Translations under genes and position numbers: made by a program
Origin: Methanomicrobium sp. W14
Lineage (GTDB): Archaea > Halobacteriota > Methanomicrobia > Methanomicrobiales > Methanomicrobiaceae
DNA length: 64,000 nt
Assembly: GCF_017875315.1 (NCBI RefSeq)
Contig: NZ_JAGGMM010000002.1
Coordinates: forward strand, 1 to 64,000
Direction of reading: 5' to 3'
Shown: positions 12,942 through 53,248 of the stretch, piece by piece
Layout: each line of letters starts with the position of its first letter
How positions within the stretch are numbered: position 1 is the first letter of the stretch
The notes under the pieces: model-generated
What the model was told of the DNA's origin: nothing
What the model saw: the letters and a program-made list of their open reading frames with translations, nothing else
Databases searched by the model: none

Positions 12942-13253
12942 TTATGTTTCAGTAAAGATGATGACTGCATTCAAGATAAAAGTATCATGAGTACACATTT
13001 TCAGTCGCAAAAACAGGCTGTGGGATGATGAAATCAACCTGGAACAGACACTTAAATAACCATGATTTCAGCCGGACAGCATTCAATAATTATAGCGCAC
13101 AAGAAAAGAATATTGATAATTTCCAAAATAGGTAACTATCTTAAAAAAGATATACTTATTTTATTAAAGATATACCTCACTCCATGAATCATTTAGAAAA
13201 ATTTAATAGAAAAATATCTTCTCAATATTAATTTAAGATTAAATTTATCATAA

Positions 13254-13274
13254 TTCCAGTGGAAATAAAGGGGT
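13254..13274 (+). repeat. Outer origin recognition box, left copy 1
   Basis: The site reads TTCCAGTGGAAAT followed by AAAGGGGT, closely matching the archaeal ORB pattern of a short dyad (TTCCA-TGGAA) followed by a G-string. The core AGTGGAAATAAAGGGGT (13258-13274) is identical to copies at 13469-13485 and, inverted, 21728-21744. Orc1/Cdc6 proteins bind such boxes asymmetrically through the winged helix and AAA+ domain. Confidence 0.75.
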
Positions 13275-13464
13275 TTTTATTCAGTTATTCCCATTTAAAT
13301 CCCTGTCAGAAGCAAACGTTCATTTTCAAACATTTCCGCCTTTTCGAAACAACACAACTTCAGTTTTCCCCGGGTTACGGCTTTAAGGGATAACCAAAAT
13401 TCCTGCTACCAAAAAAAGACCTGCATACTTTTTAAAATCTTTTTATTAAGTGTATAATTATTTT

Positions 13465-13485
13465 TTCCAGTGGAAATAAAGGGGT
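13465..13485 (+). repeat. Outer origin recognition box, left copy 2
   Basis: This site is identical over 21 bases to the copy at 13254 and in the same orientation: TTCCAGTGGAAAT then AAAGGGGT. It lies 3.6 kb left of the orc1 start. Direct repetition within non-coding DNA supports a real protein-binding site rather than chance. Confidence 0.75.
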
Positions 13486-15730: not shown

Positions 15731-17053
15731 CTACCTGAAAAGGGACTTAAACCTTGCAGTGTCTATCCGGCTTAAGCGCTCTTCGTCAAACCTCTCGTCC
15801 TGTGTGAGGGTCTTTTTGATGCCCGATGTACCCGTCCCGAACCACATCTCCTTGGTCCTCCCGTATCTTCCGCGTGAAACGACGCGTGAATTTATGACTC
15901 CTAACATTGTGAGCTCTGATATAAGATCCGTAATTCTTCTGTGCGTCAGAACGTCCAGGTCAAGTGTCTGCGCAACATCGCGGTAAATCTGGGCAACCTC
16001 GCCTGTCGTAAAGACCTGTTTGTTCATCTCCGAAAGGATAAGCATAGAATAAAGGACAGCTTTGCTCTGTGTAGGAAGCGAGGATACGCATACGATAAGA
16101 CTGTCAGTCTCAATCTTCTGCTGGGCCTTTTTCACGTGTTTTTCGGCAACTTTTTCCGCGTTTTCCCTTTCCGCGAGCTCACCGGATATCCTCAGGAGGT
16201 CCAGCGCACGTCTTGCGTCCCCGTGCTCTTGTGCAGCAAGCGCAGCGCAAAGAGGTATAACACCCTCTTCAAGGATATCATCCGCAAACGCAACATCTGC
16301 CCTCTGTTTGAGTATGTCGCACAGCTGAGGCGCATTATACGGCGGGAATACCAGCTCTTCCTCGGAAAGGGACGAGAGAACACGCGGGTCCAGAAAGTTA
16401 GTAAAACGGAGGTCGTTTGATATACCTATCATGCTTATTTTTGCATTTTTAAGCTCTGCATTGAATCTTGTAAGGTTGTAAAGAGTTTCGTCACCGCTTT
16501 TTTTGACAAGCTTGTCTATTTCGTCAAGTACTATAACGTTCACGCCGCCTATCGTTTCGACCATACTCTTAAGTTCAGAGTATACCTGGTCTGTCGGCCA
16601 CCCTGTCATAGGAATGCTTGATCTTGTCGTCTTATCACTTGACTTGTTCTCGATGTCTTCCAGTTCGTTTGCAATCTGTGCAAGCACCCTGTACTGCGTG
16701 TCTATAAGCTCACAATTGAGGTGTATTACATTGCATGCCTTTCCCATCTCCCGGCACGCCCTTTCAAGCTCTGCACCTACGTATTTGACAGACGCAGTTT
16801 TTCCTGTCCCTGTTTTGCCATATATAAGAATATTCGAAGGAGTTTCATTTCGTATTGCCGGGGCAAGGATAGAGGCTATCGAGTCAATCTGGGGACGTCT
16901 GTGCGGCAGGATATGAGGGCGGTACGAATGCCTCAGTACTTCCCTGTTTTTGAAAATACCCCTGTTGTTAAGATACTTTGTAAAAAGTCCGACTGAACCG
17001 GAAACATCTTTTTCACCCAAAGTGATATCACCATTATAACTCTTTTCAGACAA
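15731..17053 (-). CDS. cdc6: Orc1/Cdc6 replication initiator
   Basis: Archaeal initiator that binds origin boxes, opens the origin and loads MCM. In 440 residues: Walker A GKTGTGKTA at 79-87, Walker B VIVLDEID at about 173-180, sensor-1 region MIGISNDLRFTNFL near 208-221, initiator-specific insertion in the AAA+ fold, sensor-2-type HGDARRALDLLRISGELA (about 284-301) and a C-terminal winged helix from about 330, including GEVAQIYRDVAQ and HRRITDLISELTMLGVI. The gene reads leftwards, away from a 1.2-kb non-coding region with paired origin boxes and an AT-rich core. That layout, initiator gene beside its origin, is classical for euryarchaea. Length is slightly above the usual 370-420. Confidence 0.96.
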   Translation of the reverse strand: MSEKSYNGDITLGEKDVSGSVGLFTKYLNNRGIFKNREVLRHSYRPHILPHRRPQIDSIASILAPAIRNETPSNILIYGKTGTGKTASVKYVGAELERACREMGKACNVIHLNCELIDTQYRVLAQIANELEDIENKSSDKTTRSSIPMTGWPTDQVYSELKSMVETIGGVNVIVLDEIDKLVKKSGDETLYNLTRFNAELKNAKISMIGISNDLRFTNFLDPRVLSSLSEEELVFPPYNAPQLCDILKQRADVAFADDILEEGVIPLCAALAAQEHGDARRALDLLRISGELAERENAEKVAEKHVKKAQQKIETDSLIVCVSSLPTQSKAVLYSMLILSEMNKQVFTTGEVAQIYRDVAQTLDLDVLTHRRITDLISELTMLGVINSRVVSRGRYGRTKEMWFGTGTSGIKKTLTQDERFDEERLSRIDTARFKSLFR

Positions 17054-17340
17054 ATTAAAACCTCCATAATAAATAAATCAAATTTAGATCAATTTTTTTG
17101 CGTTTTTTTGAAGTGGATAAACAATGCATGAGCTTCAGTCCATACCGGTGACAGCCAGATAAATATACAGATAAATGTAAATTTGCGTTTTTCCGGTCAA
17201 AAACATGTTGGATTACCCGTAAACTAAAACAAATTTCTTTGATGGAAACTCTTAACCCCCCGGAATTTTCCATGTCCCTTATCCCCTTATTCAACTCCAC
17301 ATTTTTCCGTAACTATAGTCTAACGATGTAATTCCTTAAA

Positions 17341-17362
17341 AACCCCTACGTTTCCAGTGGAA
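17341..17362 (-). repeat. Origin recognition box near orc1 start
   Basis: On the minus strand the site reads TTCCACTGGAAACG then TAGGGGTT, an almost textbook ORB: dyad, then AAC, then G-string. The dyad half TTCCAGTGGAAAA also reads on the plus strand into a weaker G-tract (GGAAAGGA, to 17372), so it may bind in either direction. It lies about 290 bases upstream of the orc1 start, where it could also mediate autoregulation. Confidence 0.72.
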
Positions 17363-17650
17363 AAGGAAAGGATCAACTTTTCCCATACATGTACCGGTGA
17401 ATTATATTTTCTGAGAAGACTTCATTTTCTGCTTTGTTTTATCTTTCCGTAGAAATATTTTCGATAATAAATAGTTGTATAGTAAAATATTGTGAAACTA
17501 TAGATCAGGAATAAAATCAGGAAAACATACCTGCTAAAGTATTTGCTTTTTTAATTCTTGTAAAAGAGTAATGCTAAATCTTGAATTTTTTAGGTTTTTA
17601 AGCTTTCTGGGGCTTAGTTTTAGTTTTTTTATCCCTTTCGGGTGTTCTCA

Positions 17651-17678
17651 GACCCCCACCCCTTAGTTTCTACTGGAA
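17651..17678 (-). repeat. Inner origin recognition box, left arm
   Basis: Minus-strand sequence TTCCAGTAGAAAC, one base, then AAGGGGTGGGGGT. The right-arm copy at 18141 is the same over about 27 bases apart from one position. The extended G-string distinguishes this class from the outer boxes. It points away from the AT-rich core. Confidence 0.85.
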
Positions 17679-17760
17679 AAAAAATTGAGGATGAATCTCT
17701 TTGCCGGAGAAAATTTTGTTGTAGAAAATAAGTTACGGAAAATAGTCATTTGTTTGTCTG

Positions 17761-17945
17761 TAAATAATACTATATAATATTAACTAATTGATTAGTAAAA
17801 AAAGTAAAAAAGTAAAAAAGTAAAAAAGTAAAAAATAAAAAATTATATAATAATATAAAATATGACTGTAAACATATTTTGTAAAAATATACTATAAATA
17901 TATTACAGACAGTCAAAAAGAATGTACGGAGAATAGTGACAGATT
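17761..17945. other. AT-rich duplex-unwinding segment with GTAAAAAA tandem repeats
   Basis: About 185 bases of almost pure A and T between the two inner origin boxes. From 17795 to about 17842 an eight-base unit GTAAAAAA is repeated roughly five times with small variations, and an imperfect dyad (GACTGT at 17864-17869 with ACAGTC at 17909-17914) encloses further TATA-like sequence. Such segments are where archaeal origins melt. There are no coding signs. Confidence 0.72.
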
Positions 17946-18140
17946 AAATTGCGCAGGAATTGAGACTAAAGTCATTTCTTTTTTTACTTTTTCATTCATC
18001 AAATTTCGGACTTGCAGTCCTAAATATCTCTTATTTTCTTTTATTTTCTAAATTAAACAGAAAATTACTGTTATTTCCTTTTTCTGTGTATTTTTTTGCG
18101 CATAATAAAAGAGAAAAGACGGAGAGCATACCTGAAGATT

Positions 18141-18169
18141 TTCCAGTAGAAACAAAGGGGTGGGGGTTT
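18141..18169 (+). repeat. Inner origin recognition box, right arm
   Basis: Plus-strand TTCCAGTAGAAAC, one base, then AAGGGGTGGGGGT, inverted relative to the box at 17651-17678 with 462 bases between them. The pair brackets the AT-rich segment. This divergent arrangement positions Orc1 on both sides of the melting region, as for bidirectional initiation. Confidence 0.85.
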
Positions 18170-18232
18170 ACCTGTTCAAAAAATTCATACATTTTCTAAT
18201 TTTCTTTTTTTATTTCTTCATATTGTCTTCTT

Positions 18233-19105
18233 TTATTTCGTAACATCAAGAAGAGCTACCCTTTCCGCCACAAGTTCGGGAAGTCTGCTGTATCCGGCTA
18301 TTTTAATTTCATCATCCGAGATCTCAAACATTTTCATCAGGGCAGCAGTCTTTTTCTTAAAAATTTCATCAAATTTTTCATCAGATTTCTCTGATCCCAA
18401 CCCTTTAGATGCGTCTTTTTTGGTTTTGTTTAAGTCTTCATCCGGGAATGAATGGAGATTTTGAAGTTTTTCAAGGAAAAAATCATATGCATAAAGACTG
18501 TACGGATTTTTTGGGTCTTTACAGGAGTTGTCAAACGAAAAAAGGCCTGAAAGTTCATTAAAAACTTTTGATATTATTGTACCGGCTGTTTTGCTGTCAT
18601 TTATTCTTTCGGAGCTGTCTACAGCTACACAGATGTAAAGTCTGTTTCTGCCTCTTTTAAATCCCAGAGAACCGGCTTCGCTGCATTGTCTTGTCCCCGC
18701 AGCGTACAGAAGTACTTCCATTTCAAATGATTTTGAGATCTGTTCTCCTCTGCTCCACGCTCTTTTGGCATGAAAGACAGCACTTTTGATGTGCCTGATT
18801 CCTGCAATGTACCTCTCGTCAAGGCAGATTATATGTACATTGTTTTTGTCTTCTGTTTTTTTGAGCTCTTTAAGGTAGTTTTTTACATCTGCAATCTCAG
18901 CAGAAGCTGCTTTTATTCCACAGAAAAGAATGGAGGCACGGTAGCAGGCTTTGTCTTTACTGTCTGTTTTTTCAGGTTCCTCAAAATTTGAATCTTTTGG
19001 TATTTCCACTGAAAAAAACTCACAGCATTCCGTGTTATTCCCCTGACTTTTTTCCTTTATTTCCTCTTTCTCTTTTTCAGTTCTTTTTTTATTTTTTTCT
19101 GTCAT
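18233..19105 (-). CDS. KEOPS complex subunit Cgi121-like, with charged extension
   Basis: Recognised from the Cgi121/TPRKB core: IICLDERYIAGIRHIKSAVFHAKRAW, then MEVLLYAAGTRQCSEA and the SLGFKRGRNRLYICVAVD strand. Cgi121 binds Bud32 and the tRNA 3' end in KEOPS, which makes the t6A37 modification. I start at the ATG at 19105, preceded by TGAGG seven bases upstream; upstream Met codons at 19150 and 19171 lack such a site. At 290 residues it is almost twice the usual length: the first 35 residues are Lys/Glu-rich, and a second charged stretch (KTKKDASKGLGSEKSDEKFD) lies in the C-terminal half. It is followed by oriC and preceded by hel308. Confidence 0.82.
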   Translation of the reverse strand: MTEKNKKRTEKEKEEIKEKSQGNNTECCEFFSVEIPKDSNFEEPEKTDSKDKACYRASILFCGIKAASAEIADVKNYLKELKKTEDKNNVHIICLDERYIAGIRHIKSAVFHAKRAWSRGEQISKSFEMEVLLYAAGTRQCSEAGSLGFKRGRNRLYICVAVDSSERINDSKTAGTIISKVFNELSGLFSFDNSCKDPKNPYSLYAYDFFLEKLQNLHSFPDEDLNKTKKDASKGLGSEKSDEKFDEIFKKKTAALMKMFEISDDEIKIAGYSRLPELVAERVALLDVTK

Positions 19106-19354
19106 TTTTTTCCTCAGGCAGTCTGCATTTTTTATTCTTTTTGATTTCATTTTGTACAAGCGTAAGTGCAAATTTTTTCGCGGGTCAGATTGAAGGTATA
19201 AACCGCAGTTTTAAGCTTTACATGGTTTTTACAAGGCTATTTTTTTACAGGGTTATATTTCCGCTTTTTCAGAATTCTTCAGGACCATTAAGCCCGGCGT
19301 TTAAACCTGTGAAACAACTTTCCGGCTTTTACGGGATATATTTTTACCAGACTC

Positions 19355-21727: not shown

Positions 21728-21744
21728 ACCCCTTTATTTCCACT
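21728..21744 (-). repeat. Outer origin recognition box, right copy
   Basis: On the minus strand the 17 bases AGTGGAAATAAAGGGGT are identical to the cores of the two left outer boxes and point towards the orc1 locus from the opposite side. The first half of the dyad is degenerate (AGAGTGG rather than CCAGTGG). It lies 12 bases upstream of the hel308 start. Confidence 0.65.
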
Positions 21745-21977
21745 CTATTTAAATCCAGGGCCTTCTTTAAAGGAAAATAAACTTCTTTAACAGGTTTTAG
21801 TTGCACTGGAAATATACCTCTGGTGTCTTTGGGACCACAACGAAGTAAAGCCGCGGAGTTTAAGAAACACCTGGTATTCAGTGCGGTTTTCATTGAAAAC
21901 ATACTTTTTGCTGCATATTTTTCTCTATTTACAGGGCGTATTTTATTGCATTTTTAATTTTTTCAGATGAAGGCAAA

Positions 21978-52387: not shown

Positions 52388-53248
52388 TTAGCTGTTTTCA
52401 CTTATATATTCCATAATTTCAGCATTTTTTGGCATTAAATATCCTATAGTAAATCCTTTTACGTCAGTTCCCGCGTAGACATATATTCTGGCTCCTTTTT
52501 TTGCACTATAATTATAGTATTTCAAATAATCAGAAGAGTTGCGGGTGTTTAGATCATCATATAGAACAGGGAATACCTTTTCTATTGATTTATACGGGTT
52601 ATGCGATGAACCAAGCTGGCAGAATGAGTTGTCTTTCATCATGTACGCTTCTCCGTCATTGCCCATAAGTAAAGACCTTGAAAGGTATTCGCCGGTTATT
52701 TCATTGCATTTTGTTATTATCTGGAGGTGTCCGTCGTCATTTTCAATGACCATGCCTGCGGTGTACCTTGGTGAACTTATTGTCTCGGCTTCTGCACCAG
52801 CAACAGGTGCCGGGATTGTTTCATTAATTTTTTGAGTTGTATTCTGTGTTTTTTCAGGGACTGTCGTGTTAGTTTTATTGCTTGTCGCAGTTTCATTAAT
52901 TTTTTGAGTTGTATTCTGCGTTTTTTCAGGGACTGTCGTGTTAGTTTTATTGTTTAGCGTAGTTTCACTGATTTTTTGCGTAATATTCTGCGTTTTTTCA
53001 GGACTCCTCGCAGGAATTATATTGTATACAGCAATTTCACTGATTTTTTGCGTAATATTCTGCGTTTTTCCAGGAGTTATCGTGGGAGTTGCGTTGTATA
53101 CCATGGTTTCATTGATTTCTGTTGAATTTTGTATTTCTTTCAGTACGTTGGCAGACGCCTGGTATCCAGTACAGCCTGCAAAAAAACAAAATACTAAAAG
53201 AACGACCGGAATTAATGCTATAGCCAGACAGTTAAAAATTTCAGCCAT
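52388..53248 (-). CDS. Lipoprotein with 72-bp tandem-repeat stalk and unknown C-terminal domain
   Basis: A 286-residue exported protein. Signal with lipobox FCFFAGC (Cys about 27), then a stalk of four 24-residue repeats (consensus KTQNITQKISET with TNTTVPE), each with two or three N-X-T/S sequons, then a globular domain from about 150: SPRYTAGMVIENDDGHLQIITKCNEITGEYLSRSLL and later KGARIYVYAGTDVKGFTIGYLM. It resembles archaeal surface lipoproteins in which a glycosylated stalk holds a binding domain off the membrane. Repeats 3 and 4 are nearly identical at the DNA level, so copy number probably varies. Function of the head is unknown. Confidence 0.8.
   Translation of the reverse strand: MAEIFNCLAIALIPVVLLVFCFFAGCTGYQASANVLKEIQNSTEINETMVYNATPTITPGKTQNITQKISEIAVYNIIPARSPEKTQNITQKISETTLNNKTNTTVPEKTQNTTQKINETATSNKTNTTVPEKTQNTTQKINETIPAPVAGAEAETISSPRYTAGMVIENDDGHLQIITKCNEITGEYLSRSLLMGNDGEAYMMKDNSFCQLGSSHNPYKSIEKVFPVLYDDLNTRNSSDYLKYYNYSAKKGARIYVYAGTDVKGFTIGYLMPKNAEIMEYISENS
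52819..53106 (-). repeat. Four 72-bp tandem repeats in a lipoprotein gene
   Basis: Units begin at 52819, 52891, 52963 and 53035, each recognisable by TTTCA(T/C)T(A/G)AT, with a fifth partial start at 53107. Period is 72 bases, 24 codons, so the frame is preserved under gain or loss of units. The two left units differ by only a few bases, the two right are more diverged and share GCGTAATATTCTGCG. Confidence 0.85.

Follow-up and report, generated by a model that had tools for sequence, protein, structure and literature searches.

The window, by which we mean the whole 64,000-nucleotide stretch of DNA analysed here, belongs to a genome of the order Methanomicrobiales and contains a 1,179-bp intergenic gap (17054-18232) between orc1 and cgi121, upstream of orc1. 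The orc1/cdc6 initiator gene (15731-17053, minus strand) has a TTG start with GGAGGT upstream, and its protein passes the family profiles TIGR02928 (453.6 bits) and NF001625 (588.8 bits), which identifies it as Orc1/Cdc6; among solved structures, its best matches are 2qby (chain A, Cdc6 homolog 1) and 2v1u. On the other side of the gap lies cgi121 (18233-19171, minus strand), which encodes a subunit of KEOPS (NF011465); beyond it come hel308 and a krr1-like gene with a KH domain. The order krr1-hel308-cgi121-[oriC]-orc1-asnC-aspC-[boxes]-purA is widely kept among orthologous loci, for which the comparison set comprised 80 named loci and further loci from other genomes of the order, a class-level search having contributed genomes of this same order only. 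No conserved gene was seen between oriC and orc1, and an Rfam search of the window gave no match. As in euryarchaeal origins of the oriC1 type, an orc1/cdc6 gene adjoins the gap.

Within the gap stand two extended origin recognition boxes (ORBs), an orc1-side box, ORB-R (17652-17680, plus strand; ACCCCCACCCCTTAGTTTCTACTGGAAAA, of the form CCCCCACCCC...TGGAAAA), and a far box, ORB-L (18139-18167, minus strand), which repeat analysis identified as its inverted copy. Together they form an inverted repeat of 29 nt, with 28 positions identical (one mismatch) and arms separated by 458 nt. The first-pass annotation of this DNA had recognized the near-identical inverted boxes, and its figures of about 27 positions and 462 bp are corrected here; its count of two boxes falls short, as there are five or six, the others being a third box, two satellites, and one degenerate copy. 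The inverted pair is not a chance occurrence, because the four exact matches of CCCCNNNNTTTCNANTGGAAA in the 2.54-Mb genome are all confined to 13.4-18.2 kb of the contig, and the reversed pattern has no match in the same 2.54 Mb. Among 120 genomes of the order, CCCCNNNNTTTCNANTGGAAA gave about 100 matches and the reversed control 0. The box core occurs at 13253 (one mismatch), 13464, 17343, 17659, and 18140 of the window's contig, and the remaining one-mismatch matches elsewhere in the genome occur about as often as those of the reversed control. Recurrence of the paired boxes at orthologous orc1 loci, set beforehand as a check on the origin reading, was found; related loci are not independent, so that conservation counts here and below overstate the evidence, yet they span several families.

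Between the two boxes lies an AT-rich core (17760-17909), the presumed duplex unwinding element (DUE), delimited by composition and a stability scan. Its G+C content is 10-13% throughout (60-bp windows), and the 80 bp at 17825-17904 are the least stable of the 64-kb window, in agreement with the extreme AT-rich segment that had previously been noted between the boxes. Inverted ORBs thus flank a presumed AT-rich unwinding region, and this arrangement recurs: where an inverted pair is present (58 loci), it encloses the 80-bp stability minimum of the upstream gap in 50 cases, against 18 expected from length alone. The core also holds a tandem array of AAAAAAGT (17798-17842; period 8, 5.8 copies). 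The first-pass annotation was right that a GTAAAAAA array is present, but as a conserved part of the origin this candidate was rejected, as the array is missing from the oriC segments of two close relatives (L004 and L084), the nearest of those read, both viewed in full.

The GC skew places a switch close to this locus, with a resolution of tens of kilobases that comes mainly from a closed genome of the same genus (G019; 92% Orc1 identity), sampled as 40 segments of 20 kb. In this genome, the cumulative skew minimum lies between 2.21 and 2.26 Mb, with a second sign change near 1.17-1.22 Mb, and the inverted boxes are at ~2.270 Mb and orc1 at 2.271 Mb, so that the switch is ~14-54 kb from the boxes; a permutation test of the difference in skew between the arms on either side of orc1 gives p = 1.5e-4. 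In another genome, whose record starts at orc1 (G037), the first half is mostly positive and the second mostly negative at coarse sampling. Within the window, the skew is -0.073 to the left of the orc1-side box and +0.011 to the right of the far box, with the cumulative minimum near 22.5 kb, and 10 of 11 further samples along the window's own contig to the right are positive. A skew minimum far from the locus, which the earlier reading had named as grounds for abandoning it, was therefore found neither in the same-genus genome nor along the window's own contig.

On the grounds of sequence, position, synteny, conservation, and skew, we are highly confident that the window holds a chromosomal replication origin of the oriC1 type of a Methanomicrobiales archaeon, and the first proposal of an oriC here gains support from the inverted pair, the Orc1 assignment, the skew, and the boxes at orthologous loci. 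Orc1 produced from the adjacent gene would bind the two inverted extended ORBs, with their TGGAAA ends facing the AT-rich core, and the bound protein would promote melting of the core and loading of MCM between the boxes, after which forks would leave bidirectionally, as described for oriC1 origins (PMC4010727, PMC12141716). The prediction is in itself an ordinary one of the textbook oriC1 kind; we found no experimentally mapped origin for Methanomicrobiales in the open-access literature. What is new to a specialist is the satellite boxes, a position-specific G-string, and an element inside the DUE, for none of which we found a description for this order in the same literature. The genome also encodes two further Orc1/Cdc6 paralogues (NF001624, another subfamily), L003 at G000:C3:612163-613224 and L002 at G000:C2:106842-107888, and since it does, a second origin using other boxes is possible; no ORBs of the oriC type were found near these two genes. 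One of them adjoins a tyrosine recombinase gene.

The boxes of the window are not alike. The ORB motif given for Methanomicrobia by Ori-Finder 2 and DoriC, TCCA[GC]T[GT]GAAA[CT][AG]A[AT]GGGGT (PMC4164010), is found at five of them with 0-2 mismatches, namely 0 in the satellite boxes, 1 in the proximal box and in ORB-L, and 2 in ORB-R. The motif likewise lies next to orc1 here, but the satellite boxes fit it better than the oriC pair does, and a plain motif scan consequently ranks the satellite pair first. An extended "G-string," by contrast, is confined to the inverted pair among the window's boxes. Three or more consecutive C in the second run before CCCC were counted in 69% of ORB-L and 85% of ORB-R boxes, compared to 0% of proximal and 6% of satellite boxes, the contrast for ORB-R being partly a selection effect, as some boxes had been chosen for a C-rich extension. 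In the oriC1-cdc6A origin of Haloarcula hispanica, an AT-rich region similarly lies between inverted, G-string-ended ORBs beside the initiator gene, and the extended G-string is essential there and was called halophile-specific (PMC3936714). At the loci compared here, the G-string is limited to the inverted pair, and its presence in methanogens weakens the idea of halophile-specificity. The G-rich inverted repeat found just inside the ORBs of haloarchaea (PMC3936714) was not seen at this locus.

The proximal ORB (17343-17363, plus strand) adjoins a weak TATA-like sequence, TTTTTAAG (17335-17342, minus strand), of the probable orc1 promoter. Across loci, the orc1 side of the proximal boxes is AT-rich and often TATA-like (77% AT, compared to 55% for the satellites), and because these TATA-like bases adjoin the boxes on the orc1 side, they suggest autoregulation by Orc1. 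Judged by its position and by analogy, the proximal ORB probably lets Orc1 repress its own gene. As a separate observation, some 70 bp after the proximal ORB (..AGGAATTAnATCATTAGACTATAGTTACGGAAA..GTGGAGTTGAA..) seem conserved among the window (17240-17342), L004, L084, and L085, and this stretch sits in an orc1 leader of ~250 nt.

Two satellite ORBs (13464-13484 and 13253-13273, both minus strand) lie 3.6-3.8 kb past the orc1 start in the gap between aspC and purA, beside an AT-rich segment (13133-13252) that ranks third among the least stable 120-bp stretches of the window. Of 65 loci, 38 carry syntenic boxes, and none occur in shuffles or in the 47 purA-DUF gaps used as controls; the remaining 27 loci are of the Methanoregula/Methanolinea type and keep the upstream boxes. 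The satellite pair behind aspC probably titrates surplus Orc1, by analogy with oriC2 of Haloarcula hispanica, in which the downstream ORB cluster, oriC2D, lowers origin activity, probably by titrating Cdc6E (PMC3936714); like the roles proposed for the proximal box and the DUE element, this one is drawn from position and analogy. Both systems have an extra cluster of ORBs downstream of the initiator gene, but oriC2D has 11 ORBs in 722 bp, whereas here there are two, associated with an oriC1-type origin and placed behind two further genes. Kept in several families, the satellite pair offers a candidate site for titration of the initiator.

Given how well these boxes fit the published motif, each of them exactly, it could be argued that replication starts at the aspC-purA cluster (13133-13484), or that this cluster is one of two equal halves of a bipartite origin around orc1, with the upstream pair as an accessory. 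The synteny in 38 of 65 loci and the adjoining segment, one of the least stable of the window, would fit such an arrangement, as would the Methanoculleus satellite boxes, which face each other ~215 bp apart. Nevertheless, when the two gaps are compared, the upstream one proves less stable in 58 of 65 loci, the cluster is missing from all 27 Methanoregula/Methanolinea-type loci while their upstream boxes are kept, and the boxes lack the extended G-string and are arranged in tandem rather than inverted in the window, which makes either arrangement very improbable. That the satellites are instead Orc1 operators for purA or aspC, with no part in titration, is a less remote idea that we still regard as unlikely. 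In Methanogenium-type loci the second box is a constant 107-110 bp before purA, and Orc1 paralogues can regulate transcription, Orc1-2 being a damage-response regulator (PMC9738581); outside the Methanogenium type, however, this distance differs between loci by hundreds of bases, and the first box is nearer the aspC stop.

Titration of Orc1 by the satellites is the reading that we consider most likely. Several minor observations concern the boxes outside the upstream gap. In most relatives, the satellite boxes are ~190-215 bp apart in the aspC-purA gap, whatever the orientation of the second box. A motif scan also located a degenerate ORB between krr1 and hel308 (21728-21747, minus strand), and a box is found there in 9 of 40 relatives. 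Single ORB matches far from orc1 occur in L101, L102, L103, and others, mostly of families 5 and 6; the distal match in L101 was rejected as a true box and taken as chance, as it lies inside a coding gene.

A further feature, conserved across the order, is a composite, TTTATATA-N17-ACAAATGRCTATTNTC, which lies inside the DUE and keeps an almost constant spacing to the orc1-side box. In the window, it consists of a TATA-like box, ATTATATA (17771-17778, minus strand), reading towards orc1, and a motif, ACAAATGACTATTTTC (17738-17753, minus strand), of which this is the only exact copy in the genome. An EM motif search in 52 loci, covering the 130 bp that adjoin ORB-R towards the DUE, returned ACAAATGgCTaTTtTC with a score of 432, compared to 256-270 for shuffles, at 53-82 bp, mostly 53-66 bp, from ORB-R. 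In 77% of 39 loci and in 2% of shuffles, a TATA match of at least 7/8 precedes the motif by 23-27 bp, this interval having been set after seeing the data (the first was 26-31), and the independent check is provided by held-out loci. A held-out set of 20 genomes from the order, including some near to training loci, has a TATA at 72-88 bp from an ORB in 8 cases, against 0.8-1.8 expected, and among 17 loci of other orders or classes one occurs in 6, against 1.4-2.0 expected. A small open reading frame from the ATG of the motif was considered and rejected, as the frames vary from 5 to 69 codons and showed no conservation.

The element looks tied to the origin, because its distance to ORB-R is near-fixed while that to the orc1 start varies from ~200 to 1,670 bp, yet it is a promoter in form. 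We give about an even chance to the interpretation that the element (17738-17778) is the main orc1 promoter and nothing else, in which case its conservation would be uninformative about origin function. The TATA stands 23-27 bp before the motif, which is the archaeal spacing from TATA to transcription start, BRE-like purines precede it, and the whole is oriented towards orc1. Against this, a main orc1 promoter would have to account for a near-constant distance to ORB-R combined with a highly variable one to orc1, and a second TATA-like sequence is present at the proximal ORB in many of the same loci. As a part of the origin, the element probably acts in its opening or in transcription across it. 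We propose only tentatively, and consider it rather doubtful, that TTTATATA-N17-ACAAATGRCTATTNTC represents an undescribed cis-element of Methanomicrobiales origins, perhaps also of other Halobacteriota, required for opening of the origin, positioning of MCM, or transcription through it, and functionally comparable to the ucm of Sulfolobus. Were this true, the DUE element and the conserved satellite ORBs would form a regulated origin module.

The Sulfolobus ucm is the only comparable conserved element in an archaeal unwinding region that we found in the open-access literature. In oriC1 of Sulfolobus, as here, inverted ORBs (ORB3-DUE-ORB2) enclose a DUE with a conserved non-ORB element, but the ucm is placed halfway between the two ORBs, and UBP binds its hundreds of copies across the genome (PMC12141716). 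The element described here lies close to one ORB and resembles a promoter, and the genome contains only one exact copy of it. Since the exact motif is single-copy and matches with two mismatches are no commoner in the genome than in the reversed control, we do not class it as a ucm. How archaeal Orc1 directs melting and the placement of MCM is poorly understood, and the near-fixed spacing between motif and ORB makes part of this question testable.

Two features of other kinds were also observed. A palindrome ~2-20 bp inside ORB-R has arms that differ between genera yet stay complementary, and it reaches p ≤0.05 in 27 of 76 loci, compared to 4 of 76 control segments. Its carriers include L016, L017, and L021-L028 of the Methanoculleus type, L019, L097, and L098 of the Methanofollis type, and L006, L093, and L094 of the Methanogenium type; as a feature of the window, this palindrome between motif and ORB-R was rejected, being not significant there or in the nearest relatives, and the window's genus was found to lack it. 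Far from the origin, at 52818-53118, the window contains a tandem repeat of ~four copies, 81-86% alike, with a period of 72 bp, and as this period is a multiple of three, the repeat may be coding.
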